This document shows positions 22,493 to 48,928 of a stretch of DNA of 64,000 nucleotides, one piece after another. The translations under genes and the position numbers were made by a program. Within the stretch, counting starts at the first letter, position 1. The number at the start of each line of letters is the position of its first letter. The DNA comes from a virus: IMG/VR virus record IMGVR_UViG_3300047174_000111, positions 1-64,000 of that record; one strand, written 5' to 3'. The notes below the pieces were generated by a model, which saw nothing but the letters and a program-made list of their open reading frames with translations, made no database searches and was not told the DNA's origin.

Positions 22493-22555
22493 TAGGTGCT
22501 CCTTGTCAGGCCGGCGATGATGCCGGCGACCCGGCGAGGCCGGGTTTCGGAGCGG
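22493..22555 (-). promoter_or_regulatory. intergenic hammerhead-like element 1
   Basis: In transcript sense: GCTCC-GAAAC, hairpin CCCGGC/GCCGGG, TC, hairpin GCCGGC/GCCGGC, CTGACAA, GGAGC, then ATG. GCTCC can pair with GGAGC, closing a three-way junction and covering the Shine-Dalgarno. The heptamer deviates from CTGANGA at position 8. Confidence 0.65.
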
Positions 22556-22993
22556 TCAGGCGGCGCCGCGCCGCAGCCACGCATCGAACAGGTGGAAAAG
22601 CGGTTGCGGTAGCTCGCCGCGATACCAGGCGGTGTCGAAACACCAGCTGCCGCCCGGCCATTTGACTTGCGCGATCTCGCGATCGTAGGCGAGGCCGCCC
22701 AGACGTGCGCGCGGGCGGATGCGATGCTCGTAGGCCTCGAAGAACCTGAAGCGTTCGGGCAAGCACTTGCCGTCGCGCTCACTGAAGGCATTCGCGATGC
22801 GCGAGAGCACCGCCTCCGAGGCGTTGGTGATCGACGGCCCCTGATTATCGCGCAGATCGATAATCAGCACCCATGTGACGCCGTCGACGGTGGTGTCGGC
22901 GACGCCGAACGTGGTGGGAAGGCCCGCCGGAGGCATGGCCGTGAGGCGATTGACCTGGATAGCAGGTGGTTCCGTCGTAAGGGTTTGGGTCAT
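22556..22993 (-). CDS. hypothetical protein (145 aa)
   Basis: The middle reads DGVTWVLIIDLRDNQGPSIT and the end RYRGELPQPLFHLFDAWLRR-like (AWYRGELPQPLFHLF), suggesting an alpha/beta fold. Some resemblance of the latter half to phage proteins that report DNA or host state cannot be confirmed. No function assigned. Confidence 0.65.
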   Translation of the reverse strand: MTQTLTTEPPAIQVNRLTAMPPAGLPTTFGVADTTVDGVTWVLIIDLRDNQGPSITNASEAVLSRIANAFSERDGKCLPERFRFFEAYEHRIRPRARLGGLAYDREIAQVKWPGGSWCFDTAWYRGELPQPLFHLFDAWLRRGAA

Positions 22994-23051
22994 TGGTGGC
23001 TCCTCAGGCCGGCGTGACGCCGGCGACCCGGCCGAAACCGGGTTTCGCCTC
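22994..23051 (-). promoter_or_regulatory. intergenic hammerhead-like element 2
   Basis: Transcript sense: GGC-GAAAC, hairpin, GGGTC, stem GCCGGC/GCCGGC, CTGAGGA, GCC. All hammerhead core bases match, and GGC/GCC can form a 3-bp stem II. Predicted cut between 23025 and 23024. Confidence 0.7.
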
Positions 23052-23252
23052 TCAGCGATCGACGACGCGGATCAGCAGGAAGGCCTCGCCGTTCTGGGCA
23101 TCGCCCTGGACCTCGTCGAGGGCAAGCGAAAGCCCTTCGGGGCCCTCGTCATCGATGTTGTCAATCAGCGATCGCATCTGATCGCGCGTCATGTCGAAGC
23201 CGCGCCAGTTCTCCGGCTCCTTGCGGGGCCAGGAGGTGTCGTTGTCGTCCAT
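23052..23252 (-). CDS. small acidic hypothetical protein (66 aa)
   Basis: Acidic start (DDNDTSWPRKEPENWRGFD) then RSLIDNIDDEGPEGLSLALD. Preceded by element 3 and a GGAG site. Function unknown; size and charge would fit a host-protein inhibitor but nothing proves it. Confidence 0.65.
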   Translation of the reverse strand: MDDNDTSWPRKEPENWRGFDMTRDQMRSLIDNIDDEGPEGLSLALDEVQGDAQNGEAFLLIRVVDR

Positions 23253-23310
23253 GGTGATCTCCTTGTCAGGCGGCAAATCGCCGCGACCCAGCGAGGCCGG
23301 GTTTCGATAA
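23253..23310 (-). promoter_or_regulatory. intergenic hammerhead-like element 3
   Basis: CGAAAC, hairpin CCCGGC/GCTGGG, TC, stem GCGGC/GCCGC with loop GATTT, CTGACAA, GGAG. Core heptamer differs from CTGANGA at position 8. Confidence 0.6.
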
Positions 23311-23700
23311 TCAGCCCCAGCGCGCGTCGGCCAGGATCTCCGTGGTCTTCGCCACGATCTCATGAGCGTTCGGCCATTGCCAGACCTTGGCCAGCGCGAT
23401 GGACTGCCAGACGTTCGGCAGGCTCCCATGTCCTTTCGGAAACAGCGCTTCAATGTGGATGTAAATCCCTTCATTGGAGCCCTCCACCGCAAAACATGCG
23501 ATCCAGCGCGCATCTGACGGCCACGGCATGCTGTCATATCGGTTTTGGTTTACCGAGTTGATGTAGCTCAAGTCGGAGAATTCGCTTTCTCCGAATTCGA
23601 TCTTCATATCCTTGAGCCGCGCGTTGATCTGCTGGATCACTTCGCGGCATGTCAGCCCATCGACCTTGATTCGGCCGACGGTGATGGTGCTTCCATTCAT
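23311..23700 (-). CDS. hypothetical protein (129 aa)
   Basis: Begins with a beta strand pair (NGSTITVGRIKVDGLTCREV), then helices and a C-terminal HEIVAKTTEILADARWG. No motif recognised. Composition is less GC-biased than its neighbours (more Ile, Asn, Ser). Confidence 0.65.
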   Translation of the reverse strand: MNGSTITVGRIKVDGLTCREVIQQINARLKDMKIEFGESEFSDLSYINSVNQNRYDSMPWPSDARWIACFAVEGSNEGIYIHIEALFPKGHGSLPNVWQSIALAKVWQWPNAHEIVAKTTEILADARWG

Positions 23701-23760
23701 GATGGTAACTCCTCAGCCCGGCGGAATGCCGGGGACCCGCAGGGGCGGGTTTCTCTGTTG
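23701..23760 (-). promoter_or_regulatory. intergenic hammerhead-like element 4
   Basis: GAAAC, hairpin CCCGC/GCGGG, TC, stem CCCGGC/GCCGGG with loop ATTCC, CTGAGGA, G. Full heptamer match; the first pair of the second stem is C-G here instead of G-C, a compensatory change. Confidence 0.65.
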
Positions 23761-24003
23761 TCAGGCCGCTTTGTCGGCGCCCTCATGGATGAAGTAGCGG
23801 TCGCCATCGCGGCGGACCTTGCCAGCACGCTCCAACCCACTCATCAGGCTGGTGAACTGGCTGTAGCTGCAGCCGTGCTGCATCAGCGCGGCGTAGAGCG
23901 GGCCACCCGGACAGCCCGTTGGGCCGGCCGCCTTCACGGCATCGAGGGTGGCATCCACGACTAACCCAAGTGCTTCGCGCTGCTGCGCTGTCATCTGAGG
24001 CAT
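23761..24003 (-). CDS. winged-helix-like hypothetical protein (80 aa)
   Basis: Pattern CPGGPLYAALMQHGCSYSQF then MSGLERAGKVRRDGDRYFIH resembles a winged helix: recognition helix followed by a charged wing. It may bind DNA or host transcription factors. Preceded by element 5. Confidence 0.6.
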   Translation of the reverse strand: MPQMTAQQREALGLVVDATLDAVKAAGPTGCPGGPLYAALMQHGCSYSQFTSLMSGLERAGKVRRDGDRYFIHEGADKAA

Positions 24004-24067
24004 CGTATCACTCCTTCATCGTCAGCGCCGGCGATATTGCCGGCAGACCCGCGTTGCGGGTTTCGTG
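24004..24067 (-). promoter_or_regulatory. intergenic hammerhead-like element 5
   Basis: CGAAAC, hairpin CCCGC/GCGGG, TC, stem TGCCGGC/GCCGGCG, CTGACGA, then a separate GAAGGAG site. The heptamer matches exactly and is distinct from the Shine-Dalgarno, so the match is not explained by the ribosome site. Confidence 0.7.
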
Positions 24068-24610
24068 TCACGCGGCCTCCTCTGTGGCAGCCTCCAGTTC
24101 GACCCGTTCGACTGGCACGCGGGCGAACGGGGTGTTCGCCAGCATCCATTGGCGCAGGCTCTTGAGCAGCGCGCCCTGGCTCGACGCATCCGCCGGCTCG
24201 ACGACGCGGCCGCGGTATTCAATTGCGGTCAGGGCGTCGCGCGCGGTCCGGCGATACAACTCGCTGCCGTGGAGATAGACCTCGGGGATAGGGGCCTCGA
24301 GACCCATGTTCCATCGGAGCTGACCCAGGTAATGCGGCATGCGGCTGAGCATGCGTGCTCGCGCTGCATCGAGCTTGCGCTCGTACGTCACGATCGGCGT
24401 GCCGGTGTGGATGAAGCCATGAAGGGCCGAAAGCACCACAACCCAGGGAATGCGGTGCTGCATCGGGTCGTTGGGCTTGTCGAGCTTGTCCTGGCATTTT
24501 CGGTAGGTGCGCCATGACGGCCCGTCGTAGACTTCGAAGGCCGGCTTCGGCGTGACGACGTGCCGCTTGGTCTGTGAGCACGCCATGATCAACGCTCGTT
24601 CGATTGGCAT
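24068..24610 (-). CDS. DUF6884-like protein
   Basis: The N-terminus ALIMACSQTKRHVV and PAFEVYDGPSWRTYRK match the pattern of DUF6884-type proteins (ACSxxK then AxxxYxGPxW). The middle WVVVLSALHGFI also fits. These proteins are common in phages; a link to nucleotide or base modification has been suggested but is not certain to me. 180 residues. Confidence 0.6.
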   Translation of the reverse strand: MPIERALIMACSQTKRHVVTPKPAFEVYDGPSWRTYRKCQDKLDKPNDPMQHRIPWVVVLSALHGFIHTGTPIVTYERKLDAARARMLSRMPHYLGQLRWNMGLEAPIPEVYLHGSELYRRTARDALTAIEYRGRVVEPADASSQGALLKSLRQWMLANTPFARVPVERVELEAATEEAA

Positions 24611-24665
24611 AGGGTTTCTCCTCTTCAGGGCCCCGGATTGGGGCGACCCGCAGGGCGGGTTTCGC
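24611..24665 (-). promoter_or_regulatory. intergenic hammerhead-like element 6
   Basis: CGAAAC, hairpin CCCGC/GCGGG, TC, stem GCCCC/GGGGC with loop AATCC plus one unpaired C, CTGAAGA, GGAG. Exact heptamer match. Confidence 0.6.
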
Positions 24666-25520
24666 TCAGTCGGCCGCGTCCTGGAGCGCATCGACGGGTA
24701 CGTCCAGTGGGACATACTCGGCGAGCGCGCCGGCCGCATCCGCATTGTGCGCCGTGAGAAGCGCGATCCGGTTACCGAAGTCCATCCGTTGCCAGGCGGG
24801 CTTCGCCTTTTCGCGCGCCTCCCGCTGGCGCAGCTTCCAGTTCCAGCCGCCCAGGATATGGGCGGGCGTGTACCACACCTCGTCGAACTCATTACGGAGA
24901 GTGTCGCCGCGGTAGATCATGCAGGGGATGTGCATGAGCGAAGCCTGGACGTAGGTCATGTGGACGCAGCGACGGTCGATGTCGGCAGCGGTGACGTGCA
25001 GCGTCTGCTGGTAATTGACATCGCGATCCGACAGCGCATCGGCCATGGCGACAATCATGCCGCCGGGGCCGCAACAGGGTTCGCAGGCGGTGACGAAGCC
25101 ATGCTGCTCGATGACCTCTTTCATCGCATCGGCATAGACCATCGTCGCCATCATCTTCGACACGCTGTAGGGCGTGAAGAACTGGCCGTGCCAGTCGCCT
25201 CGCAGCTCAAGGCCTGTCCATATCGCCCCCATTACATCGCGGGGGTGCGCATCGAGCACCGTCGTGACGTCTCCGAGCAGTGTGGCGATCACCGCCAGCT
25301 CCTCGGCCTTGTAGCCCTTGGCAATTTCGAGGTAGCGTTTCTCGCGCTTCTCGCGCTGCTGCAGGTCGACCGCGTTGCTGATGGCGATGGCGGCCATCTC
25401 GACGAAATCGCCGAAGACGGTCTCGGGGCGGTGACTGTCCAGGCTCTTGATGTTCGAGACGATAGAATTGATCCGCGCCTCCGGCGTGAGCAGGATTGGC
25501 GCTTTTTTCTTGGCGGACAT
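24666..25520 (-). CDS. N6-adenine DNA methyltransferase-like protein, catalytic motif not conserved
   Basis: From the ATG at 25520 (284 residues). FFTPYSVSKMMATMVYADAM and TACEPCCGPGGMIVAMADAL match the SAM-binding region of HsdM/N6_Mtase proteins. The expected catalytic NPPY/F is replaced by a region reading YTPAHILGGWNW, so methyl transfer is doubtful. The C-terminus has WQRMDFGNRIALL, a motif shared with three other proteins of this block. It could be a decoy that blocks host restriction or methylation. Confidence 0.7.
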   Translation of the reverse strand: MSAKKKAPILLTPEARINSIVSNIKSLDSHRPETVFGDFVEMAAIAISNAVDLQQREKREKRYLEIAKGYKAEELAVIATLLGDVTTVLDAHPRDVMGAIWTGLELRGDWHGQFFTPYSVSKMMATMVYADAMKEVIEQHGFVTACEPCCGPGGMIVAMADALSDRDVNYQQTLHVTAADIDRRCVHMTYVQASLMHIPCMIYRGDTLRNEFDEVWYTPAHILGGWNWKLRQREAREKAKPAWQRMDFGNRIALLTAHNADAAGALAEYVPLDVPVDALQDAAD

Positions 25521-25577
25521 AGGTTTGCTCCTCAGGCACGCGGGATGCGTGCGACCCGGCAAGCCGGGTTTCGGAGG
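25521..25577 (-). promoter_or_regulatory. intergenic hammerhead-like element 7
   Basis: CGAAAC, hairpin CCCGGC/GCCGGG, TC, stem GCACGC/GCGTGC with loop ATCCC, CTGAGGA, G. Exact heptamer; both stems are perfect and differ in sequence from other copies. Confidence 0.7.
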
Positions 25578-26144
25578 TCACTCGATCAACTTGATCCACG
25601 AGGTGTAGTCGGGCGACATGATCATCGTGACGAAGGCTTCAGTGCCTGGAATGCCCTGCCGCGCGTTGTACCGGGTGGGCTGCTCGAGGCCGTAGAAGTT
25701 CTTCAGGGCCTTCTTGCTCCACAGGCAGTAGCCTTCCTCGATCAGTTCATGGGCGCGCCGGCCGATCGAGCCGGGCGCGAACCAGCATTCGCCGGTGTTG
25801 ATCTGGCGCTGCCAGAAGGCGATGAGCTGCTTCGCGTTGGCCGGCAGGACGTCGTTGATCTCGTCGGTCAGCGCTTGGGCGGTGTCGAGTTCCAGTGCAG
25901 CGAGGACGGTGACGCGCTCGCCGAACGGCATGTTGCGCCAAACGGCGCCGGTCGTCAGGAACGAGTGCTCGAAGTAGGCCTCGCGCTGCTCCTGCGTGGC
26001 CGCGTGGGACGCGACGACATGGGGCTTGCGCGTGCCGTCGGGCAGCTTCTCGACGATCATGACGTTCGAGACGCACTCCTCGACCAGACTGGATGCGGCG
26101 AGCTTTGACTGCTCGTCGTCGCCCAGCATGACGATATGGTTCAT
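25578..26144 (-). CDS. hypothetical protein with shared FGxR motif (188 aa)
   Basis: Contains WRNMPFGERVTVLAALELD followed by AQALTDEINDVLP, the motif shared by four proteins of this block. The rest is alpha/beta with GKxCW-like INTGECWFAPGS. No enzyme signature. Preceded by element 8. Confidence 0.65.
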   Translation of the reverse strand: MNHIVMLGDDEQSKLAASSLVEECVSNVMIVEKLPDGTRKPHVVASHAATQEQREAYFEHSFLTTGAVWRNMPFGERVTVLAALELDTAQALTDEINDVLPANAKQLIAFWQRQINTGECWFAPGSIGRRAHELIEEGYCLWSKKALKNFYGLEQPTRYNARQGIPGTEAFVTMIMSPDYTSWIKLIE

Positions 26145-26208
26145 GGGATACTCCTCAGGCCGGCGGAATGCCGGCGACCGGCCCGGCCATAGGCCTGGGC
26201 AGGTTTCG
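26145..26208 (-). promoter_or_regulatory. intergenic hammerhead-like element 8
   Basis: CGAAACC, longer first hairpin (CTGCCCAGGCC / GGCCGGGCCGG), TC, stem GCCGGC/GCCGGC with loop ATTCC, CTGAGGA, GT; AC before GAAAC can pair with GT. Exact heptamer. Confidence 0.65.
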
Positions 26209-26802
26209 TCACGCCGCGAGGCGCAAAGGCTCCTCGGCGCGGGCCGCGACTGCTTGCTCAACAGCTGCGTCCTTTTTCCGCCCGGTTTTCTTGTCGTAGT
26301 CGGCTTTCCAGACGACTGGGTCGGCGTGCTCCGGGTTGACCTTGATCGAGGCCCGCCAGACAGCCCAGACGTCGCGGTCGCGCAGCTCAGGCACAACAGT
26401 GCAGGTCTCCAGCTTCATTTCGAAGCTGCTGATCTCCACGCCATGCGGGATGATGCCGCCCGGCCAGAACTCGGCATGAGGGATGAACTGGTCACGCGGC
26501 ATCCGGATCGTGGTGCCGCGCTCGCTTTTGTAGCTGGCCTGATCCTTCTTCAGCCGCCCCCACCGTCCCGCGTCGCATACCTGTCGGAACATGTAGCGCG
26601 GGCCGTGCCGATTCATCGCGTTGGCTTTCGCGGCGGCGAGCAGCTTGCTGAACAGCTCGCCGCGCGCCATGCGCCGAGGCTTGGCAAACGGTGGCTCGCC
26701 GAGGCTGAGGCCGGCCCTTTCCCGTAACACCGGAGGGCAGTATGGCATCATGTCGGCTATGAGCTGCGCGACCTTCTGGGTCTGCGTCAGTGCTTTGGGC
26801 AT
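26209..26802 (-). CDS. hypothetical protein (197 aa)
   Basis: Start at 26802 chosen for the GAGGAG site in element 9. Basic protein with KLLAAAKANAMNRHGPRYMF and DVWAVWRASIKVNPEHADPV. No known domain recognised. Confidence 0.65.
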   Translation of the reverse strand: MPKALTQTQKVAQLIADMMPYCPPVLRERAGLSLGEPPFAKPRRMARGELFSKLLAAAKANAMNRHGPRYMFRQVCDAGRWGRLKKDQASYKSERGTTIRMPRDQFIPHAEFWPGGIIPHGVEISSFEMKLETCTVVPELRDRDVWAVWRASIKVNPEHADPVVWKADYDKKTGRKKDAAVEQAVAARAEEPLRLAA

Positions 26803-26873
26803 GGTCTTGCTCCTCAGGACCGCGGGATGCGGTCGACCGCCCCTGGCGATGGGGCGGTTTCGGAGCGGAGGCG
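26803..26873 (-). promoter_or_regulatory. intergenic hammerhead-like element 9
   Basis: GCTCC-GAAAC, hairpin ACCGCCCC/GGGGCGGT, C, stem GACCGC/GCGGTC with loop ATCCC, CTGAGGA, GC. Exact heptamer. GCTCC could instead pair with GGAGC and cover the Shine-Dalgarno. Confidence 0.7.
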
Positions 26874-27020
26874 TCATTCCTCCTTGGGCTGTTGCACCAG
26901 ATCGGAATCGCGATCGACGGCGGCTTGTTCTTCAGCGGTCAGCCTGCCAGCGAGCCGGTCGATCCCATCGTCACGATCGTCGTCGTCAAGCCATTCGATG
27001 ATGTCTTGCGCGCTTGGCAC
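26874..27020 (-). CDS. small acidic hypothetical protein (48 aa)
   Basis: A GTG at 27020 preceded by GGAAGAA gives PSAQDIIEWLDDDDRDDGID and a helical acidic tail. Unlike its neighbours it has no structured element in front. The 16 codons before the GTG are open and in frame with the upstream gene across its TGA at 27069-27071, so a readthrough fusion is an alternative reading. Confidence 0.55.
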   Translation of the reverse strand: MPSAQDIIEWLDDDDRDDGIDRLAGRLTAEEQAAVDRDSDLVQQPKEE

Positions 27021-27068
27021 GATTTCTTCCGGACTGAAAGTGCGAAACTTTCTGCGCCGAGGGATGCC

Positions 27069-27284
27069 TCAGCTTCCAATTTCGATATTCAACTGCTCGG
27101 CGTCTTCCAGCGCGAGCACAATGCCTTCTGGATGTTCGTAGCGCGCGCTGAGATCGGAACCGACAGGATAGACGGAAGCGTCTAGGCGCGTGGCTGCATC
27201 TACGTCCTCAACGTGTAGGATCAGAATGTCTCCGTTTTCATTCCTTCTCCCGAAGAATGAGCCGTATTTGTCGCTGTAGGCCAT
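27069..27284 (-). CDS. hypothetical protein (71 aa)
   Basis: Contains YGSFFGRRNENGDILILHVE and HPEGIVLALEDAEQLNIEIG. Ends at a TGA followed by 16 open in-frame codons leading into the 48-residue gene. Preceded by element 10. Function unknown. Confidence 0.65.
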   Translation of the reverse strand: MAYSDKYGSFFGRRNENGDILILHVEDVDAATRLDASVYPVGSDLSARYEHPEGIVLALEDAEQLNIEIGS

Positions 27285-27348
27285 TATTTTCTCCTTTTCA
27301 GGCCACAGGATTGCGGCGACCCCTCGCGGGGTTTCGGGTCAGTCAACG
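27285..27348 (-). promoter_or_regulatory. intergenic hammerhead-like element 10
   Basis: CGAAAC, hairpin CCC/GGG with loop CGCGA, TC, stem GCCGCA/TGTGGC, CTGAAAA, GGAG. CC before GAAAC can pair with GG. Heptamer deviates at position 8. Confidence 0.6.
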
Positions 27349-27600
27349 TCAGGCCGCGACGGGCGCGTCCTTCGATGCCGCAGGCCACGGCAGGCTCTCG
27401 GCGACGCCGGCGAGATGGTAGATCTCCATCGGTGTCACTCCAGGCGGCGCTTCCAGGCGACAGGCGTTGCGCGCAAAATGCACGGTGGCTTGGGGGGAGC
27501 CTGTAATGGCGTTTTCCGCCAGTCTCTTGAGGTGTGGAAACTTGGTCACGTAGGCGCCAAGGACATGGGCCGGGATAGGACCAGGTGTTTGAGATGGCAT
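27349..27600 (-). CDS. hypothetical protein (83 aa)
   Basis: Reads IPAHVLGAYVTKFPHLKRLA and PQATVHFARNACRLEAPPGV. No family recognised. Preceded by element 11. Confidence 0.65.
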   Translation of the reverse strand: MPSQTPGPIPAHVLGAYVTKFPHLKRLAENAITGSPQATVHFARNACRLEAPPGVTPMEIYHLAGVAESLPWPAASKDAPVAA

Positions 27601-27654
27601 ATTTCTCTCCTTTTCAGGCAGCTCGATTGCTGCGACCCCTTTTGGGGTTTCGGC
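27601..27654 (-). promoter_or_regulatory. intergenic hammerhead-like element 11
   Basis: CGAAAC, hairpin CCC/GGG closing an AAAA-containing loop (CCCC AAAA GGGG), TC, stem GCAGC/GCTGC with loop AATCGA, CTGAAAA, GGAG. The shortest copy. Heptamer deviates at position 8. Confidence 0.6.
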
Positions 27655-27897
27655 TCAGTCGAAAGTGGGCTGCAGTCCTGCCCAAGCTTGGCATGCTCGA
27701 TCTCTCCAATCCGCAACCATGTGACGGCCGGCCGGCGAACTTTCGGGATCGTCTATGACGATCCCGTTAGATTGGCAGAACGAAATGAGAGCTGATTTCG
27801 AGTTCGAATTATACCAGTTTAGGGCCGCTTCATACGCATCGAAGCTCGGGAACCGGAAGAAAGCACCCGTCTCATCGTGCTGATATTCGTATGTCAT
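27655..27897 (-). CDS. hypothetical protein (80 aa)
   Basis: Tyr/Phe-rich N-terminus (TYEYQHDETGAFFRFPSFDA) and ADWRDRACQAWAGLQPTFD at the end. Codon use is less GC-rich than neighbours. Function unknown. Confidence 0.65.
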   Translation of the reverse strand: MTYEYQHDETGAFFRFPSFDAYEAALNWYNSNSKSALISFCQSNGIVIDDPESSPAGRHMVADWRDRACQAWAGLQPTFD

Positions 27898-27959
27898 AAG
27901 CGTCTCTCCTTTTCAAAACCTGCTCATCTGCAGGCGACCCGGCCAAGCCGGGTTTCGGG
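27898..27959 (-). promoter_or_regulatory. intergenic hammerhead-like element 12
   Basis: CGAAAC, hairpin CCCGGC/GCCGGG, TC, stem GCCTGC/GCAGGT, TTTTGAAAA, GGAG. The heptamer is the poorest match (two deviations and an extra T). Confidence 0.55.
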
Positions 27960-28211
27960 TCAGTCGATTGGAACGAGCGGTCGCCCCGTCCGGGGCGCAC
28001 GGTCGTCCGCCTCGTCGAGGCGGGTGACAACCATTGTATTGTGTCGGCCCTGCTTGTCAACGGCCGTCATCACGGCAGGCTCGCCGGTCAGCAACATGTT
28101 GACGAAGCTGACCCAGCTGCGGGTCGTGTTGGCCGTCCGTCCCAGGCTGTGGGCCGTCATCTCGATCGGCCGCTGGCCCGGACAGGTAACCTTGAACTTT
28201 TGCGGGTTCAT
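27960..28211 (-). CDS. hypothetical protein (83 aa)
   Basis: Start at 28211 after a GAGGAG site. Contains KVTCPGQRPIEMTAHSLGRT and SFVNMLLTGEPAVMTAVDKQ, suggesting a small beta-rich fold. Function unknown. Confidence 0.65.
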   Translation of the reverse strand: MNPQKFKVTCPGQRPIEMTAHSLGRTANTTRSWVSFVNMLLTGEPAVMTAVDKQGRHNTMVVTRLDEADDRAPRTGRPLVPID

Positions 28212-28273
28212 TGTAGTCTGCTCCTCAGGCACCGGGATTGGTGCGACCACCCGGGCAGACCCAGGCGGTTTCG
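28212..28273 (-). promoter_or_regulatory. intergenic hammerhead-like element 13
   Basis: CGAAACC, hairpin CGCCTGGG/CCCGGGTGG-type, TC, stem GCACC/GGTGC with loop AATCCC, CTGAGGA, G. Exact heptamer. Confidence 0.65.
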
Positions 28274-28738
28274 TCACGCCGCGATGCGTTCAAGGACGGG
28301 CAGCGGCATCAGGCTGGGCAGCTCGATTGACAGGGCCAGCGCGCAGTCGGCGCCGGCGTCGTTCAGGATCGAGAGCCGCCGACCGAAGTCAAACATCTCC
28401 CAGCGCGGCTCGGCTTGGTCCTCCAGCTCGGCGCGGTACGTGTCCTCGTCGAGGATGCATCGCGTCGCCTGTTCGCACAGCTCCAGGGCCATCTGCGCAG
28501 CCACGGCCATGCCGGGGAAGCAGATCAACGCCGCCTCGCAGTCGCGTGGGTCGAGGTCGATCAGCTTCGCGGCATGGCGTCCGAAGATGCTGCAGACCCG
28601 CAGCGTGATGGCTGCGGCCTGGGCCCGGTCGAGCGGGCACGATGTGTCGAACGTCGATACGGAGAGCCAGTCCTGTTGGCGGTCTGTCGCATAGACGCGC
28701 CAGGGGAAATCCCTGACGTGTCCCATGGCGCATTGCAT
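28274..28738 (-). CDS. hypothetical protein with shared FGxR motif (154 aa)
   Basis: Contains PRWEMFDFGRRLSILNDAGA followed by CALALSIELPSLMP, the C-terminal motif shared in this block. Cys-rich middle (AALICFPGMAVAAQMALELC). Function unknown. Confidence 0.65.
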   Translation of the reverse strand: MQCAMGHVRDFPWRVYATDRQQDWLSVSTFDTSCPLDRAQAAAITLRVCSIFGRHAAKLIDLDPRDCEAALICFPGMAVAAQMALELCEQATRCILDEDTYRAELEDQAEPRWEMFDFGRRLSILNDAGADCALALSIELPSLMPLPVLERIAA

Positions 28739-28793
28739 GGATATCTCCTCTTCAGATCCGCATCAGTGCGGATGACCCGCTAGGCGGGTTTCG
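28739..28793 (-). promoter_or_regulatory. intergenic hammerhead-like element 14
   Basis: CGAAAC, hairpin CCCGC/GCGGG, TC, stem ATCCGC/GCGGAT with loop ACTGAT, CTGAAGA, GGAG. Exact heptamer. The first pair of the second stem is A-T where others have G-C, strong evidence that pairing is maintained. Confidence 0.7.
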
Positions 28794-29342: not shown

Positions 29343-29403
29343 GGGGTGTCTCCTCGGGCAGCGTGATTGCTGCGACCCGCTCCTCAGGCGGGTTTCGATT
29401 GGG
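29343..29403 (-). promoter_or_regulatory. intergenic hammerhead-like element 15
   Basis: CGAAAC, hairpin CCCGC/GCGGG with loop CTGAGGA, TC, stem GCAGC/GCTGC with loop AATCAC, CCGAGGA, GA. One deviation (position 4). Confidence 0.6.
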
Positions 29404-29726: not shown

Positions 29727-29821
29727 CTCAGTTCTCCTCTTCTGGCCGGCGGAATGGCCGGCGACCCGATCGGCGCGCGGCCGGGCGGGTTTCGGAAGAT
29801 CAGGATTCTGTCGTCGTGATT
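29727..29821 (-). promoter_or_regulatory. intergenic hammerhead-like element 16
   Basis: CTTCC-GAAAC, hairpin CCCG/CGGG with a large loop, TC, stem GCCGGC/GCCGGC, CAGAAGA, GGAG. GGAG can pair with TTCC upstream (4 bp). One deviation (position 4). Confidence 0.55.
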
Positions 29822-30103: not shown

Positions 30104-30129
30104 CGACAGGATGTCTCTTCGTTACACAT

Positions 30130-30187
30130 ATGGTGTTTCTCCTCATGCGGCGCAATGCCGCGACCCTGCCCGTAGGCAGGGTTTCGA
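30130..30187 (-). promoter_or_regulatory. intergenic hammerhead-like element 17
   Basis: TC-GAAAC, hairpin CCTGCC/GGCAGG, GTC, stem GCGGC/GCCGC with loop ATTGC, ATGAGGA, GA. GA can pair with TC. One deviation (position 3). Confidence 0.6.
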
Positions 30188-30732: not shown

Positions 30733-30788
30733 TTGGTGTTCTCCTCATGCAGCGGGATGCTGCGACCCTGCGCGGAGGCAGGGTTTCG
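30733..30788 (-). promoter_or_regulatory. intergenic hammerhead-like element 18
   Basis: CGAAAC, hairpin CCTGC/GCAGG, GTC, stem GCAGC/GCTGC with loop ATCCC, ATGAGGA, G. One deviation (position 3). Confidence 0.6.
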
Positions 30789-31283: not shown

Positions 31284-31353
31284 TTTTTCTCCTCATGCAG
31301 CGAAATGCTGCGACCCGCAGCCCCGAAAGGCTGCAGGTTTCGTCACGTTCGAC
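31284..31353 (-). promoter_or_regulatory. intergenic hammerhead-like element 19
   Basis: CGAAAC, hairpin CTGCAGCC/GGCTGCGG-type, GTC, stem GCAGC/GCTGC with loop ATTTC, ATGAGGA, G. One deviation (position 3). Confidence 0.6.
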
Positions 31354-32553
31354 TCAGATCTGGTTGCGGGTCGCGCGCGACATGAGCTTCGTCGCGACCT
31401 TTTCGATCTCCAGTCGGCGATCGGTGTTGGGCACGGTTCGAGCGACTGCAGTGATCCCGTTCACCATGTCCCAGATGCTCTCCGGTTCACGGCCTTCTTC
31501 GCGTTCGTGGGTTTCGAAGATGGTGTCGACCATCTTCATCGAGAAATCGAGCCCGACGAGCAGCTTCTTGCGCTCGTCCTTGTCAGCGCCGGCCTTGGTC
31601 TCCTTGCAGACCTTGATCCCTGCGAGCAGGGCGGTCGGCTCGGAGCGGGCGTAGCGCTCCAGGGCGGGCTGGGCCTCGCGTTCGAAACGCAGCGAACCGT
31701 GCTTCGAATGGACGATGCTCAGCTTCTCGAAGTTCTCCACGCCCCACATCGTTCTGTTTTGGCAAACGCCGCGCAGAACGAAGGTGGCAATGCCCAAAGC
31801 ACGAGTCCCCACTTCGGAGTTGAAGGCATAGAACCCACGGAACACGAGATCGGGATCGCCATTGGCGAGCTTGCCGATCTCGAGTGGCCGCGTGTCGTCG
31901 ACCAGGAACATGAAGACGTCCCGGTCGGACGCGTAAAGCGTCGTGGACTGCTTGGTGACATCGACGTAGGGGTTGTAGGTCATCGCCCTCCAGTCGATGC
32001 ATCCGGGGATCTTCCAGTGGGTATCGCCCGTCCCGTTCCCGGCGATGCGCTGGACGGCCGCGACCAGTTCCGCATCATAGATGCGGCCATAATCGGGGCC
32101 GGTGACAGCACGCAGCGAGAATTCCTCGCTTTCGCCGAACATCTTCATCGGCATCTCGGTCCCGCGTCTGACGAGACCGTGCTGCAGATTGATCGCGGCG
32201 AGCGGAGCCGGCAGGTCGCGCAGATAGGATGCCGGAGCCTTGACCAGCGAACACATCTGGCCGAACGAGTGGTGGGTCGGCGTCAGCGTGCGGCCTTCCG
32301 GCGTGATCACCCGCAGCATGTCGGGATCGTCGCGTCGTGCGTCGATCTTGAGGTCCGACATCGACACGAGTTCCTCGAACGAGGTATCGCGACGCTTGCC
32401 CACGGCCTCGGCCAGGGCGTTCAGCGATGTGTATCGCTGATCGTCCGGGCGCGAGAACCATTGCTTGGACAGGTCGCCACGAGCCTCGCCGCGGCTCACG
32501 TCGATGCTGCGGGTGCCCACCGTGCCGGGCGCGGCTGGCGTGATCATGTTCAT
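31354..32553 (-). CDS. DUF932-like protein
   Basis: From the ATG at 32553 (399 residues). The layout resembles DUF932 proteins of phages and plasmids: VKAPASYLRDLPAPLAAINL, TGPDYGRIYDAELVAAVQRI, LYASDRDVFMFLVDD, NGDPDLVFRGFYAFNSEVGT and RGVCQNRTMWGVENFE. Role unknown; such proteins are often highly expressed early. It is the largest protein of the block and lies next to the palindrome at 32632. Confidence 0.65.
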   Translation of the reverse strand: MNMITPAAPGTVGTRSIDVSRGEARGDLSKQWFSRPDDQRYTSLNALAEAVGKRRDTSFEELVSMSDLKIDARRDDPDMLRVITPEGRTLTPTHHSFGQMCSLVKAPASYLRDLPAPLAAINLQHGLVRRGTEMPMKMFGESEEFSLRAVTGPDYGRIYDAELVAAVQRIAGNGTGDTHWKIPGCIDWRAMTYNPYVDVTKQSTTLYASDRDVFMFLVDDTRPLEIGKLANGDPDLVFRGFYAFNSEVGTRALGIATFVLRGVCQNRTMWGVENFEKLSIVHSKHGSLRFEREAQPALERYARSEPTALLAGIKVCKETKAGADKDERKKLLVGLDFSMKMVDTIFETHEREEGREPESIWDMVNGITAVARTVPNTDRRLEIEKVATKLMSRATRNQI

Positions 32554-32625
32554 GGGAACATCTCTCTCTTCAAGCCGGCAAAATCGCCGGCGACCCGCAT
32601 CCTCCTCTGTATGCGGGTTTCGAAC
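32554..32625 (-). promoter_or_regulatory. intergenic hammerhead-like element 20
   Basis: TTC-GAAAC, hairpin CCGCAT/ATGCGG, GTC, stem GCCGGC/GCCGGC with loop GATTTT, TTGAAGA, GAG. GAG can pair with TTC (one wobble). One deviation (position 3). Confidence 0.55.
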
Positions 32626-32653
32626 CGGAGTCACATAAAAATGTGACTCCGGT
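32624..32653. promoter_or_regulatory. extended palindrome containing CACAT-N4-ATGTG, site 3 of 7
   Basis: Thirteen-base perfect arms (ACCGGAGTCACAT and ATGTGACTCCGGT) around AAAA; the core palindrome is 32632-32645. It is the longest of the seven copies and is intergenic, so it could be an operator, a terminator-like hairpin, or both. Confidence 0.65.
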
Positions 32654-32664
32654 GTGTTTCTGGG

Positions 32665-33120
32665 TCAGGCCGCGAGCTGCTCGCGCGGCTGCGGCATGAT
32701 CTTGCGTGCTTTCATGACGCGGAACGTGACCGGGAAGCTGATCTCGACCCGGTCCGGGTTCAGGACAAGGGCCGGATCGATCTCCCCGGCCGCGACAGGC
32801 GGCACACCGGGCTGGGTCGAGAGCGCGATGTGCAGCAGCACACCATCGGGCCGGTGCGTGCGGTGGCCGATCTTGACCACCAACGCCTCGTGCAGCCTCA
32901 GATTGTTCTGGTGCAGCCCGACCACGTCGCAGGTCAGCATTTCGGCCTGATCCTGCCCCGCTTCCCGCCCAGGATAAACGGCCTCGTCCTCGGCACAGTC
33001 GTAGACCCACAGAATCTGCCTGCAGTAGACAAATCCGAGTGTCGGCCGATAAATCCGGAGAAGGTTTCCCCGGATGTGGTCGTTTATCTCGGCCGCGATC
33101 ATGTATTTGTTTGAACTCAT
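32665..33120 (-). CDS. hypothetical protein, first gene of the 22-33 kb block (151 aa)
   Basis: The ATG at 33120 is preferred because GGAGAGG lies just upstream; an ATG four codons earlier would contain that site. Contains AAEINDHIRGNLLRIYRPTL, VVGLHQNNLRLHEALVVKIG and VEISFPVTFRVMKARKIMP. No function recognised. The upstream 33121-33250 interval should hold the main promoter of the block. Confidence 0.65.
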   Translation of the reverse strand: MSSNKYMIAAEINDHIRGNLLRIYRPTLGFVYCRQILWVYDCAEDEAVYPGREAGQDQAEMLTCDVVGLHQNNLRLHEALVVKIGHRTHRPDGVLLHIALSTQPGVPPVAAGEIDPALVLNPDRVEISFPVTFRVMKARKIMPQPREQLAA

Positions 33121-33446
33121 GAACCTCTCCATTTTCTAGGATTAGGGCATAATGCCCCTTTAACTATATAGTTACTTGAGTGGCACAATTCAATACGTCA
33201 AAGCGCATTCGTATGGCGTCGATGGGTTGTAATCGACTCACCTAGGCCTTTTCGATGTTGCGTGGATTGTGGTGTTCAGGCTCAGATGGGTGGCCCGGAG
33301 GGAGTAGGATCCCTCCGGGCCGTCTGCGGCGTTTCCGGGGCCGGCGCCGCAGTATGCACCGAGCCGAATGGGCCCAAGATAGCGGAGAACCGTGTCTTGG
33401 CACAACATCATTATGTCGTGAGTGGGGTAAAAACCCCAACAGAACC
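33121..33446. promoter_or_regulatory. divergent control region between early block and replication module
   Basis: On the minus side it holds TTGACG near 33197, the AT-rich palindrome AACTATATAGTT, and a small GGGCATTATGCCC hairpin, suggesting the promoter of the 22-33 kb block. On the plus side lies a perfect hairpin (GGCCCGGAGGGAG with ATCCCTCCGGGCC, 33292-33321). No protein-coding gene is supported in the interval. Confidence 0.45.
33292..33321. other. perfect GC-rich hairpin upstream of replication gene
   Basis: GGCCCGGAGGGA pairs with TCCCTCCGGGCC almost without a loop remainder. No T-run follows on either strand, so it is not a standard terminator. It may shape the 5' leader of the replication mRNA. 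Confidence 0.5.
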
Positions 33447-34502
33447 GTGAGCGGCAAGGAGTCGGCGCCAAGTCTCGCGTCTCTGCCCTGGATGAAGTGG
33501 CGCTGGGACTTTGCGTCTGGGCCCGTGTTTCGCGGTCTGAGCCGAGCCGCCAAGGGGCTGTACATCGATTTGATCGGCCTGATGCGCACCGGGGACTCCT
33601 ATGGAAGGCTGATCTTCAACGGACGGCCGCCTTCGGCCGTCTGGCTGCAGCGCAACCTGGGTGATCCTGCCGAGACACTGCGCGCGCTGACCAAGGAGCT
33701 GATCGACGCCGGGATGCTCGCCCGCGAGACAGACACGAACATCCTCTACTCGCCGCAGATGGTGAACGAAGAGGCCGCGTACACGAAGGGCCGAGCCGAC
33801 GGCGCCTTGGGGGGAAACCCGGCATTGAAAAACCCCCCGAAGCGGCGCCAAAGATCACGAAAAGTGGCACGAAAGGCGCCAGCCAGTGGCCAGGCCCAGG
33901 CACCTCTTATGGCCGAAAAACCCATAACAAATCAATTGGTTGAGGGGGGGTTAACCACTGGGTTAACCCTAGATCTAGATCTAGATAGAGATTCAGAGAA
34001 GAAGGGATCTCCTTCGGAGATCCTTGTCCGTCAGGCGTCGCAAGACGACGCCCGCCGGACGTGTGAGGATCCGCGTTTCGATGCTGACCCCGGGACGGAC
34101 GTGACGACGGCTGCGAACGTCGTGGCGCTTCCTTCCCGTGCCTCGGAGCAGATCGACCGGGCCGTGGCGATGTGGAACGACCTGGCCGAACGAATCGACC
34201 TGCGAAAGTGCCGCATCGTCAGCGCGCCACGCCGAAGGCAGCTTCTGCTGCGCCTCAAGGAGGCCGGCGGTATCAACGGGTGGGCCCACGCTCTTCAACA
34301 GGTCGAGGCGAGCGAGTTCCTCCGCGGCGGCGGCTCAAGTGGATGGCGCGCCGACTTCGACTTCATGCTCCAGGCCAAATCCTTCGCCAAAGTCATGGAG
34401 GGGTCCTATGCGCGAATGCATAGCGACCAGAAAGAAAGCAAATACCATTTCCTCACGGAAATGCTGGCCGATGAAGTCGAATATCAAGGAAAACATGGAT
34501 GA
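33447..34502 (+). CDS. phage replication initiator / replisome organiser-like protein
   Basis: The GTG at 33447 begins SGKESAPSLASLPWMKWRWD. Residues about 15-100 look like a winged-helix DNA-binding domain (RGLSRAAKGLYIDLIGLMRT, LIDAGMLARETDTNILYSPQ). A long basic and disordered linker follows. The C-terminal domain (RAVAMWNDLAERIDLRKCRI, LLLRLKEAGGINGWAHALQQ, WRADFDFMLQAKSFAKVMEG) matches the helicase-loader/DnaT-like tail common in phage replication proteins. It should bind the phage origin and recruit the host helicase; AT-rich repeats in its linker coding region (about 33930-34000) may be the origin. Confidence 0.75.
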   Translation: MSGKESAPSLASLPWMKWRWDFASGPVFRGLSRAAKGLYIDLIGLMRTGDSYGRLIFNGRPPSAVWLQRNLGDPAETLRALTKELIDAGMLARETDTNILYSPQMVNEEAAYTKGRADGALGGNPALKNPPKRRQRSRKVARKAPASGQAQAPLMAEKPITNQLVEGGLTTGLTLDLDLDRDSEKKGSPSEILVRQASQDDARRTCEDPRFDADPGTDVTTAANVVALPSRASEQIDRAVAMWNDLAERIDLRKCRIVSAPRRRQLLLRLKEAGGINGWAHALQQVEASEFLRGGGSSGWRADFDFMLQAKSFAKVMEGSYARMHSDQKESKYHFLTEMLADEVEYQGKHG

Positions 34503-35299
34503 ATGATTTGTCGAATGTAGGCCGTGGTACGCTGCCCGCTCCTCTGTCACCGAATATGTCCGAAAAACTTAATCGGATACTGGCGACATATTATAACGAG
34601 GCTGCAGTTGTTTTTGTGGTGGAGGAGACTGTTCGCGCCGAGGCGCGCGGCCTGATCGCGCTCTACGACAGCGCGCTCAACGAGCCCGCCACGCTCGACG
34701 TCGTGCGTCGCTGGTTGGCGCGGATCACCGCTGCCGTGAAGTTCATGCCCGACAAGGAGGGCATGACACACCGCGCCCTGGCGATCGCCCAGGTCTGTGA
34801 GGGCCGTGTCCCGCTCTGCGCGTTCAACACCGAAACGCAGACCGCGGCCATGGCGAGGTTCAAGGACTTCCCCTCGGCGGCCGAGGTGCTGGAGCTGCTT
34901 TCGGACGCCACTGCCGTCCTGCGCCTGCGCCGGCGCGCGCTGGAGGGTGTGTCGCAGGGCAAGAGCTGCATGTTTCAGCCCGCAGCCGTGCCGGAGCCGC
35001 CAGCGATGACGCCGGAGCAGCGGGCCGCTGCCAGCGAGCTGATGCGCGCGCTCTTTGGGAACATGGGCGTCGGCCTCGAGATCTCGCCGGGCGGATCGGC
35101 TTCGCCATCTCCCCGCGTCGATCCGGGCCGGCAACGCAACCCGCCGATCGGCGCCGAGCTGCGCCCCGAGCATCTCATCACCGTCTGGGCCGCGCATGAG
35201 CACAGCCCGAATCCCGAGATCCGTGCCGTGGCGAAAGTCAGGCTGGCGGCTCTGCGCGCCAAGCTCCCGGCGGGAAGTGGTGCGGGGGATGACACGTAA
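34499..35299 (+). CDS. hypothetical protein of replication module (266 aa)
   Basis: Start overlaps the previous stop (ATGA). Helical protein with ILATYYNEAAVVFVVEETVR, ARITAAVKFMPDKEGMTHRA and AAASELMRALFGNMGVGLEI. This family often follows replication initiators in phages, but its role is not known. A possible helicase-loader partner. Confidence 0.65.
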   Translation: MNDLSNVGRGTLPAPLSPNMSEKLNRILATYYNEAAVVFVVEETVRAEARGLIALYDSALNEPATLDVVRRWLARITAAVKFMPDKEGMTHRALAIAQVCEGRVPLCAFNTETQTAAMARFKDFPSAAEVLELLSDATAVLRLRRRALEGVSQGKSCMFQPAAVPEPPAMTPEQRAAASELMRALFGNMGVGLEISPGGSASPSPRVDPGRQRNPPIGAELRPEHLITVWAAHEHSPNPEIRAVAKVRLAALRAKLPAGSGAGDDT

Positions 35300-35534
35300 C
35301 CGCATCCAGCGGAGCAGGGGCGGTGTGGATGGCGCCTGCAACGGCAAGCACCGGTTCGACCGAGCCGCGGACGCTCTGGCCGTCGTGCGGCGCGGTCGCG
35401 CGTCACACAGGCGCTACATCTGCTACCTCTGTCAGCACTGCGGTGGCTATCACCTCAGCCAGCCCGGCGGTCGCCTAAAGCGTCTGGAGGCGTCCCGCCA
35501 CAAGCCCGACTGGCTGGCTCAGCTGGAGGATTGA
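35289..35534 (+). CDS. small zinc-binding hypothetical protein (81 aa)
   Basis: Basic start (TRNRIQRSRGGVDGACNGKH) and CYLCQHCGGYHLS as a likely zinc site. It overlaps the previous gene by 11 bases and is convergent with the VRR-NUC gene. Function unknown. Confidence 0.65.
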   Translation: MTRNRIQRSRGGVDGACNGKHRFDRAADALAVVRRGRASHRRYICYLCQHCGGYHLSQPGGRLKRLEASRHKPDWLAQLED

Positions 35535-36043
35535 AACGCAGCCGGCGCCCGTGGCGCGGCGATGCCGGGTCCCCACGGCCGGAAGCGCAACCGGATGCCG
35601 CGGGCCTCGAGCAGGTCGGCATATTCCTCCTGGCTCGAGAAGACGTGGTGATGGTGCTGGAGGTGGCGCACCGCCGCGCCAAAGCGCAGCTGCTGCGGCG
35701 ACTGCCGCCCGGCCCTGCGCCGCTTCTGGCCCAGCAGGAGTGGCGCGCCGATCTCGGCCGGCCGCTTCAGCTCGATCAGGTCGGTGCACGGCCCCGCGGT
35801 GAGCAGGATCAGGTCGACCGCACCGGGCAGAACGCCCAGGCCGTAGGGACGAAGCCGGTCGGCTTCGGGGAGCTGTTCGCGATCCTCGGCCGAGATGCCG
35901 ACCAAACGGGCCGCCGTGACGCGATCGCGCTTTTCGCCGTTCGGGACGGCGAACAGGATCGCGCTGGCCGCATCGATCACCGCCACTGCATGGAAGTCAA
36001 CGATGCTCGATTGGAGCTGGTCCTCGATCCGGGATCGGGGCAT
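35519..36043 (-). CDS. VRR-NUC domain nuclease
   Basis: A 174-residue PD-(D/E)XK-type nuclease: ILFAVPNGEKRDRVTAARLV, GVLPGAVDLILLTAGPCTDL and IELKRP supply the usual D-(x)n-ExK residues, and QSPQQLRF is the conserved helix. It matches the stand-alone phage VRR-NUC family, which cleaves structured DNA such as Holliday junctions. Located at the replication module, so it may resolve replication intermediates. Confidence 0.85.
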   Translation of the reverse strand: MPRSRIEDQLQSSIVDFHAVAVIDAASAILFAVPNGEKRDRVTAARLVGISAEDREQLPEADRLRPYGLGVLPGAVDLILLTAGPCTDLIELKRPAEIGAPLLLGQKRRRAGRQSPQQLRFGAAVRHLQHHHHVFSSQEEYADLLEARGIRLRFRPWGPGIAAPRAPAAFQSSS

Positions 36044-36055
36044 CAGGGCGATGCG

Positions 36056-36292
36056 TCATGTAACAGCACAGTTGGATGTGGCATTTTGGTGGTTCGTGGA
36101 AGGATGGGTGACGCCGAGTGCCGTCTGGAGCGCTCTGATTGTTCGCGCTCCAGGCCGAAACGCCGGTCTCCCAAATTTGGCGAGCGTGTTCGGGTGCAGC
36201 CCGGCGCGACGCGCCAGTTCCGCGCGCGACATGCCGCTGCGCCGCCACCGCTTATGGAGAGTGAGGATCAAATCATCGAGCGTCTCGGTCAT
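36056..36292 (-). CDS. Cro/CI-type HTH regulator, candidate palindrome-binding repressor
   Basis: From the ATG at 36292 the 78-residue protein reads LDDLILTLHKRWRRSGMSRA, ELARRAGLHPNTLAKFGRPA, then RTIRALQTALG, a complete HTH_3/Cro-like domain. The palindrome CACAT-CCTG-GTGTG lies 14-27 bp upstream of the start, overlapping the translation-initiation region or promoter, as expected for autoregulation. Small size suggests Cro-like dimers binding short palindromes. It is the best candidate for the factor that reads the seven sites. Confidence 0.75.
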   Translation of the reverse strand: MTETLDDLILTLHKRWRRSGMSRAELARRAGLHPNTLAKFGRPAFRPGARTIRALQTALGVTHPSTNHQNATSNCAVT

Positions 36293-36305
36293 GACACACC
36301 ATCGC

Positions 36306-36319
36306 CACATCCTGGTGTG
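36306..36319. promoter_or_regulatory. palindrome CACAT-N4-GTGTG, site 4 of 7, before HTH gene
   Basis: One mismatch in the second half-site. Lies directly upstream of the HTH gene start at 36292. Also upstream of a short plus-strand ORF, so it could control both directions. Confidence 0.6.
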
Positions 36320-36347
36320 GTCAGCAAGCACATAAGGCGCACAGGAT

Positions 36348-36488
36348 CTGAAATCCAGATCGACCCATCCCGACTACCAGTCGCCCACGCAGATCCCGTG
36401 GCCCTGGAACCGCAAGCCCTGGAAGGCCGGAGAGGCGCGACACACCATTCGCGGCATCGTGACTCACGCCATCGTGCCGCAGCGCTGA
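36348..36488 (+). CDS. possible small protein (46 aa), non-standard start
   Basis: The frame ending at 36488 reads STHPDYQSPTQIPWPWNRKP, then WKAGEARHTIRGIVTHAIVP, which looks protein-like. After the preceding stop only CTG is available as a start. A terminator follows at 36497. Low certainty. Confidence 0.3.
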   Translation: MKSRSTHPDYQSPTQIPWPWNRKPWKAGEARHTIRGIVTHAIVPQR

Positions 36489-36496
36489 AACGCGAA

Positions 36497-36529
36497 AAGC
36501 CCCAGCGACCGCGAGGGGCGCTGGGGCTT
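36497..36529. terminator. bidirectional Rho-independent terminator
   Basis: AAGCCCCAGCG pairs with CGCTGGGGCTT. It lies between the short plus-strand ORF and the minus-strand glycine-zipper gene, nine bases after the latter's stop. Confidence 0.8.
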
Positions 36530-36537
36530 GTCGTGTG

Positions 36538-36927
36538 TCAGTCGGCGATCTGCCGGGTCGGGGATGCCGGGTTGTGGCAGCCGTAGGCCGCGTCGATGTC
36601 GGCCGGCGTCATCTCGGTGACGACGGCGCGCGGCTCGGTCGTGAGCCGAAGCGCACCGAGCCATTCGGCGGCATCGCACACGGCGGGGATCGCGACGCGG
36701 GCTGCGTAATAGACGCCCACCGCGAGCCCGGCGCCGAGCGCCAGGCCGCCGAGGACCGCGACCGCCGGGGTCACGGTGATGCCGGCGACGACCAGCGCAT
36801 CTGCGGCGAGGAATTCGCCCAGCGCGGAGCTGGCTACGAATCCACCGGCGGCAGCCGCACTGCTGCGCGTGAACTGCGAAACGCTTTCGATGGCGTTGTA
36901 CGGCAGATCGTTGAGCATGTTGGACAT
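36538..36927 (-). CDS. glycine-zipper membrane protein, paralogue A (129 aa)
   Basis: Hydrophobic and Gly/Ala-rich middle (VVAGITVTPAVAVLGGLALG, AGLAVGVYYAARVAIPAV) predicts one or two membrane helices with GxxxG spacing. The N-terminus SNMLNDLPYNAIESVSQFTR is polar. It matches paralogue B (37068-37457) in length and layout. Possibly an envelope or superinfection-exclusion protein. Confidence 0.65.
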   Translation of the reverse strand: MSNMLNDLPYNAIESVSQFTRSSAAAAGGFVASSALGEFLAADALVVAGITVTPAVAVLGGLALGAGLAVGVYYAARVAIPAVCDAAEWLGALRLTTEPRAVVTEMTPADIDAAYGCHNPASPTRQIAD

Positions 36928-37067
36928 GGGGTAACTCCTTGGTGATGAAAGTGATGTTGGTGCCGATTGATCAACGGTTCGGCGCCGTTCGGGGAGCGTG
37001 TTGCTCGTCAGGCCTGGGATTTCACCAAGCGACCGGCCGGCCCCTTTCGAGGCGCAGCAGGTTTCGA
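36928..37067 (-). promoter_or_regulatory. intergenic hammerhead-like element 21
   Basis: CGAAACC, first hairpin containing GCC(T)C-GAAA-GGGGC, GGTC, stem GCTTGG/CCAGGC with loop TGAAATC, CTGACGA, G. Exact heptamer, and about 90 bases from the start codon, so unlike the other copies the heptamer is not part of a Shine-Dalgarno. Confidence 0.65.
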
Positions 37068-37457
37068 TCAGGCCGCGACCAGGTCGCGCTCGGCGAGGTC
37101 CAGCGCCTCGCAGGAGGTTGGCCGGAATTCGTGGCGACGCGGTGTGGCTATGATCTTGATATCGTCAGGCGCTCTCTGCTCGACGGGCGCCGTGAGGACT
37201 TCGACGGCTTCAGGGTCCGATCCGCCGAACTGGCGGCAGACCCAGCCATAGGCATCGCTGACCGGGTCAGCAGCCTGTTCGACTCCGTACGCGATGCCAG
37301 CGCCCGCGAGGGCGACGGTACCGACGACGACCCCGCCGAGGATGAGGACGGGGGCCAGCTCGGTGACCAAAGCGGCCGCACCGAGCGCCGTGCTCGCTGC
37401 GGTTACCACGGAGAACGCGCCGAAGGCGAACTTGGCGGCATTTTCGGAAACGGACAT
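37068..37457 (-). CDS. glycine-zipper membrane protein, paralogue B (129 aa)
   Basis: FGAFSVVTAASTALGAAALV and PVLILGGVVVGTVALAGAGI predict membrane helices rich in small residues. The C-terminal tail is polar (EQRAPDDIKIIATPRRHEFR). A much longer ORF extends upstream but is not protein-like. The start has a GGGAG site within element 22. Confidence 0.65.
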   Translation of the reverse strand: MSVSENAAKFAFGAFSVVTAASTALGAAALVTELAPVLILGGVVVGTVALAGAGIAYGVEQAADPVSDAYGWVCRQFGGSDPEAVEVLTAPVEQRAPDDIKIIATPRRHEFRPTSCEALDLAERDLVAA

Positions 37458-37522
37458 TGGGGTGTCTCCCTTTTCAAGCATGCGTTGATGCATGCGACCG
37501 CGGAGTGATGCGGTTTCGGCAA
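37458..37522 (-). promoter_or_regulatory. intergenic hammerhead-like element 22
   Basis: GCC-GAAACC, hairpin CCGC/GCGG, TC, stem GCATGC/GCATGC with loop ATCAAC, TTGAAAA, GGGAG. No upstream gene is present here, so the element belongs to a 5' leader. Two deviations in the heptamer. Confidence 0.5.
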
Positions 37523-44629: not shown

Positions 44630-44631
44630 TG

Positions 44632-48927: not shown

Positions 48928-48928
48928 A

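Follow-up and report, generated by a model that had tools for sequence, protein, structure and literature searches.

Clustered hammerhead ribozymes in phage genomes

Hammerhead ribozymes are found clustered around single genes in prophages and phages, where a function in the processing of long transcripts was proposed, and tandem arrays of them cleave in vitro, a triple from A. tumefaciens doing so also in E. coli (Perreault et al. 2011, PMC3088659). What hammerhead ribozymes do in bacteria and phages is described in a review as an open question (PMC6155905), and the reason for the clustering of self-cleaving ribozymes is called unknown (PMC10085705). Here we describe an array of 22 putative hammerheads on the minus strand of a virus record, IMGVR_UViG_3300047174_000111 (96,571 bp, of which the first 64 kb were analysed and are referred to as the window). 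The same record encodes phage terminase and portal genes. An original prediction, made on this DNA from its letters alone, held that no operon built in this way had been described, a statement that the clustered phage hammerheads of Perreault et al. correct.

What these clusters, for example the A. tumefaciens triple around ardA, have in common with the window is that hammerheads stand close together and flank single genes or short blocks in phage regions, and that the role proposed, the processing of long phage transcripts, is the same; the window, with 22 elements, is thus a case of clustered phage hammerheads. They differ in scale, with 22 elements in the window and 23 and 30 in two further phage records presented below (G002 and G041), placed at nearly every gene over 13–19 kb, whereas the tandem tested in E. 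coli is a triple. They also differ in build: the window copies come without the pseudoknot, and their Shine-Dalgarno sequence (SD) is fused with the core or with stem II. In the haloviruses HF1 and HF2, the hammerhead HHphage lies 13 nt 5′ of the start of an early-region gene, and a mapped transcript 5′ end falls near its cleavage site (PMC3088659). The window elements likewise stand shortly 5′ of a start codon, but form an array, whereas HHphage is a single element with an insertion in its core. Compared with the Rfam family RF02276 (Hammerhead_II), they have the type II topology, the order of the core and stems I and III, and differ in a shorter stem II, in the lack of the pseudoknot between loop I and the tail, and in the deviation of 12 of the 22 cores. 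Cluster K mycobacteriophages also have elements (SAS/ESAS) that recur 5′ of many genes and contain inverted repeats together with an SD, as the window elements do, and to our knowledge no hammerhead core is known in them.

A literature search, with most subscription journals outside its scope, found no account of a ribozyme at each of 20 to 30 genes, and none of an SD inside a hammerhead core. The array is a real and sizeable case of a kind already known, whose layout and SD overlap seem undescribed so far: the scale, with a ribozyme for nearly every gene in three phage records, looks new, and the use of a ribozyme core or stem II as SD seems new.

Anatomy and identity of the elements

All 22 elements were located and parsed singly at the positions originally predicted. 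Each of them reads, in transcript order, from the upstream stop codon through a short stem II strand, GAAA, a stem III hairpin closed by an A-U pair, C17, a stem I hairpin and a CUGANGA-like heptamer to the start codon. The element begins mostly 1–13 nt 3′ of the upstream stop and the AUG follows mostly 6–15 nt 3′ of the core, so that with such short spacing it makes up almost the entire intergenic gap. The core counts given at the outset were exact on recount: GAAACC and GGTC are present in all copies, the heptamer is an exact CUGANGA in 10, departs from it once in another 10 and twice in the remaining 2, and 21 of the 22 copies keep G10.1, as 21 keep C11.1. GAAA, U16.1 and C17 occur in every copy, and the unpaired core positions G5, A6, A9, G12, A13, A14 and C17 are invariant throughout, though the stems have diverged. 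Matches to GAAACC-N(4-20)-GGTC number 21 in the window (a few of them outside elements or doubled), against 1.9 expected by shuffling, and no shuffle reached 21. A strict hammerhead descriptor gave 17 matches on the minus strand of the window and 0 on the plus strand, and, with both strands counted, found no canonical hammerhead in 933,508 nt from control phage loci.

Searched with Hammerhead_II, whose gathering cut-off is 37 bits, the window gives one match above it (22991–23050, 37.9 bits) and eight further elements below it, at 19 to 35 bits and with correct boundaries, while none of 14 control genomes gave a match. Stems I and III form 122 and 148 contiguous pairs respectively, against 45 and 99 in controls with swapped partners. 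On a structural alignment of the 22 copies, 88.3% of the cells are paired (68.9 ± 1.7% in controls) and 53 cells carry double changes (18 in controls); both stems are closed, with about 92% of cells paired and with covariation. Having been fitted to the structure, this alignment is biased in its favour, but pairing falls to 31–44% when the partners are slid by 1–3 columns. The view that the hairpins vary in sequence yet stay paired is borne out by strong covariation of stems I and III. A covariance model made from the 22 window copies (R1) recovers type II hammerheads of canonical form from other phage records, with a best E of about 9e-13. Because of the Rfam match, the covariation and this cross-matching, there is good sequence support for regarding the 22 elements as hammerhead ribozymes of type II, opened at stem II, or as close derivatives of them, and the core identity first proposed can be retained.

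Loop I is frequently (A)AUC or (A)AUU across the elements from 22503 to 37517, despite differing stem I sequences, and this recurrent sequence is possibly a tertiary contact.

Core variants and the short stem II

In the 10 exact copies the core sequence is that of RF02276 (C3UGANGA9, G12AAA and U16.1-H17), and the deviant copies are called hammerhead-derived here. Among the exact cores, CUGAGGA is found in elements 10 (28222–28272, C17 at 28245), 14 (26811–26861, C17 26835; 34.9 bits with Rfam), 15 (26152–26207, C17 26176), 16 (25529–25572, C17 25553; preceding an N6-methylase-like gene), 19 (23710–23753, C17 23734; with an A11.1 mismatch) and 21 (23001–23046, C17 23025; with a stem II of 3 bp, and the copy above the gathering cut-off). 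CUGAAGA is the core of elements 9 (28749–28792, C17 28774) and 17 (24622–24663, C17 24645), and CUGACGA that of elements 2 (37005–37065, C17 37031; next AUG about 78 nt downstream, at 36927) and 18 (24019–24064, C17 24046; with an extra U before stem II and a separate SD).

The core pair 3-8 is C-G in 12 copies, U-A in 2, U.G in 1, C.A in 4 and A.G in 3. Both copies with two deviations, elements 1 (37471–37517, C17 37496; preceding the coding sequence 37068–37457) and 11 (27910–27956, C17 27936), have a UUGAAAA core. Their number was counted correctly at the start, but it was missed that the two changes form a U3-A8 pair, a natural variant reported to be active (PMC3088659), so that the worst-looking copies are in fact compensated. 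Element 3 (32567–32621, C17 32592; preceding a DUF932-like gene) has UUGAAGA with U3.G8. A3 in AUGAGGA is common to elements 4 (31290–31341, C17 31312), 5 (30742–30787, C17 30764) and 6 (30140–30185, C17 30162), and A8 to elements 12 (27611–27651, C17 27634) and 13 (27295–27335, C17 27318) as CUGAAAA, and to elements 20 (23263–23305, C17 23285) and 22 (22503–22548, C17 22528; with a 5-bp stem II pairing with the SD) as CUGACAA. Position 4 is changed in element 7 (29738–29793, C17 29763; CAGAAGA, U4A, stem II of 4 bp) and in element 8 (29351–29396, C17 29374; CCGAGGA, U4C), the latter change being weak in vitro, yet enough for viroid infectivity (PMC3088659).

The weak point already conceded in the original prediction, a very short stem II, is confirmed. 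The pair 10.1-11.1 is G-C in 20 of 22 copies, both columns being near-invariant and hence little informative, and 10.2-11.2 forms a pair in 13 of the copies, where 8.5 would be expected (p = 0.018); across the 22 copies there is no pairing signal beyond 2 bp. Stem II is longer in deviant than in exact copies (mean 2.3 vs 1.1 bp, p = 0.008), a post hoc comparison that is confounded with SD sequence.

The Shine-Dalgarno sequence and the ribozyme core

The hairpin had been pictured as lying next to the SD, which missed that 19 window copies out of 22 have an SD tetramer that either overlaps the core or extends from the end of the core into stem II. Some ten copies carry it as CUG-AGGAG, from A6 to G10.1, and nine as a purine run (AAGGAG, GAGGAG and the like) reaching stem II; in the A8 copies, the SD is AAGGAG, moved downstream at the expense of G8. 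At other phage loci, 18 of the 38 elements that have G at position 7 place the SD within the core, against 5 of the 214 that have another base there (Fisher p about 5e-13), a comparison that ignores relatedness and in which many G7 elements come from a scan requiring CTGAGGAG, with no start codon required nearby.

A bolder reading, which we consider less likely than not, is that some phages organise entire gene blocks with one ribozyme per gene and that, in the lineage of the window phage, core or stem II acts at once as the SD, ribosome binding and self-cleavage being mutually exclusive. Each junction would then be an RNA switch in which cleavage and release of the products give access to the ribosome-binding site, tuned gene by gene through variants of the core and stem II.

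Arrays in other phage records

The original prediction overlooked the recurrence of the same architecture in other phage records. These were found by pattern scans of IMG/VR, in which loci are selected by the pattern and from which no frequencies can be derived. Among the matches listed, 160 of 214 distinct canonical elements have a stop codon on one side and an SD plus open reading frame on the other, against 44 of 912 random positions. The record G002 (IMGVR_UViG_3300033112_000310, 111,982 bp; locus L162) carries 23 type II elements at 878–13922 in successive gene gaps, all 23 with exact cores. Where a gene was assigned, its end mostly lies no more than about 25 nt from the next element, and the genes of G002 include an ArdC-like antirestriction protein and Ku. 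In many of the G002 elements a further U stands between A9 and stem II. In G041 (IMGVR_UViG_3300033551_000003, 64,814 bp; loci L439 and L440), which holds the largest array among the matches listed, 30 type II elements at 42614–61184 precede nearly every gene, and genes end mostly 2–18 nt before the next element. Cores are exact in 23 of the 30, and the deviants (four U4C, U3-A8, U3.G8 and one AUGAUUA) are of the kinds seen in the window. Smaller arrays of 5 to 9 elements are present at L062, L096, L108, L171, L183, L195–L197, L200, L221, L318 and G001.

The pseudoknots of G041 differ between copies and remain complementary (479.5 vs 354 ± 14 with partners swapped). The excess is smaller in G002 (302 vs 270 ± 8.5, with 1 of 300 swaps reaching 304), because one sequence is common to most of its copies. 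Most copies in G041, L108, L196, L197 and L200 have their own loop I–tail pseudoknot with compensatory changes, which speaks in favour of the catalytic fold being under selection.

A tie of the hammerhead to the DUF932 or methylase gene family was considered and rejected: an element is nearby in 1 of 35 IMG/VR relatives of the DUF932 gene and in 0 of 2 relatives of the methylase gene. The single case is L160, where a canonical type II hammerhead (9838–9905) stands directly 5′ of the DUF932 homologue, in the gene position of element 3. A pattern scan of genome contigs returned mostly chance matches without pairing; L372, from a gammaproteobacterial assembly, has three canonical type II hammerheads and is the sole such case in that scan. 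L150, with two hairpins 5′ of an SD, was discarded, having neither a hammerhead core nor a fitting repeat family.

A proposed self-cleaving operon and its alternatives

We put at roughly 70% the probability that the 22 elements form an array of type II hammerheads and close derivatives, in nearly every gene gap, which self-cleaves co-transcriptionally into hairpin-ended single-gene mRNAs and frees the ribosome-binding site. Each copy, once transcribed, would fold around the catalytic core, with stem III right after the upstream stop and stem I right before the start region, and would be cut after C17. The upstream mRNA would then end in the stem III hairpin and a 2′,3′-cyclic phosphate, and the downstream mRNA would begin with a 5′-OH and the stem I hairpin, the SD coming immediately after the hairpin. 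Because the very short stem II is the sole link between the cleavage products, these would separate, and cleavage should free the overlapping SD for translation. The outcome would be single-gene mRNAs with a hairpin at each end, which may protect them. Such cutting of a polycistronic RNA is in keeping with the anatomy and is, of the explanations weighed here, the best.

Several observations weigh against this proposal. Most of the 22 copies score below the Rfam cut-off, and statistical support for stem II is limited to 2 bp. The loop I–tail pseudoknot typical of type II hammerheads, where it is common and not obligatory, gives no signal in the window (151.0 vs 151.2 in swapped controls). A published construct whose stem II measured 1 bp was fast only as long as its 6-bp pseudoknot was intact (PMC3088659). 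The 10 copies with one deviation are uncompensated within the core, including the four with A8 and C3 and the three with A3 and G8, and most relatives of the two operon genes lack a nearby element, so the genes do not depend on the elements. With stem II weak and the pseudoknot not found, the activity of the window copies is uncertain, above all for the A8 and A3 copies among those with a single deviation, and some copies are probably inactive.

Are the elements, then, retired ribozymes, descended from active hammerheads and mostly non-cleaving now, which serve as leaders with a stop-codon hairpin and a ribosome-binding-site hairpin that insulate the genes and present the SD? The 12 off-consensus cores, the weak stem II and the missing pseudoknot in the window would fit, as would an SD that overlaps the core, where ribosome binding competes with ribozyme folding, and the A8 copies, which trade G8 for a downstream-shifted AAGGAG. 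Yet a plain leader would have no evident use for GAAA, U16.1, C17, G5, A6 and A9, which are invariant or nearly so amid diverged stems, two of the deviant copies are compensated (U3-A8), and U4C, U3-A8 and U3.G8 also occur in G041, whose stem II and pseudoknot are intact; we regard this alternative as rather improbable, while giving it real weight. Recombination or mobile modules, in which the repeats act mainly at the DNA level through gene shuffling or duplication of a gene with its element, would account for variants common to adjacent copies (A3 at 31341, 30787 and 30185; A8 at 27651 and 27335), which suggest local duplication. The stems, however, diverge and stay paired, a sign of selection at the RNA level, and no longer DNA common to the surroundings of the copies was noticed, which makes this origin quite improbable. 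Slimmer still is the chance that the elements are not ribozymes at all and are protein-binding or processing sites, of RNase III type or for a phage RNA-binding regulator, requiring two hairpins and GAAA. Each element does carry two hairpins at a gene boundary, and double hairpins there are common processing signals; the exact core in the right order and topology, the Rfam match and the cross-match to canonical hammerheads would be hard to account for.

Genomic context of the array

No relatives were found among known phages compared with the window at the DNA level. Its terminase has its closest matches, at about 39% identity, in phages of Rhizobium, Roseobacter and Paracoccus, and an alphaproteobacterial host is therefore likely. 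The operon, which may be an early one, encodes the DUF932-like protein (phrog_1362, 31354–32553, minus strand), the N6 DNA methylase-like protein (24666–25520, minus strand) and a DUF6884-like protein, most of its other genes having no family match. Directly 3′ of the last gene, a terminator-like hairpin with a T run (22104–22119, minus strand) is a match to consensus only, and a sigma-70 promoter scan of the array region gave nothing exceeding chance. The layout with an element at nearly every gene stands, but the array seems to extend over more than one transcription unit: gene 32665–33132 has no element and 33.1–36.5 kb is also element-free, and both set the copies at 37517 and 37065 apart from the other 20, which lie downstream.

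A perfect 13-bp hairpin (32624–32653) stands in the gap that separates the stop of gene 32665–33132 from element 3, whose stem II strand it touches. A 9-codon frame, MCNEETSCR, lies 3′ of element 6 (30140–30103) and overlaps the start of the next gene with its end; a leader peptide is possible. Elsewhere, the window contains two TnpB-like genes (OrfB_IS605 / Cas12f1-like TNB; 5294–6517 and 56124–57236) and a cluster of 18 tRNA genes (1992–4599). The two portal parts of the 933-aa portal protein (45239–48040) are separated by about 340 residues, a possible intein, to which intein models gave no match.

Implications for phage gene expression

Taken together, these arrays suggest that some phages split one long message into single-gene messages by means of self-cutting RNA. 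With arrays of 22 to 30 copies that cover nearly every gene, a role in messenger processing is far likelier than with scattered single copies, and many natural ribozyme variants are offered inside one genome. If the proposal is true, messengers would be processed without a protein, and a shared sequence would couple ribozyme catalysis to ribosome access.

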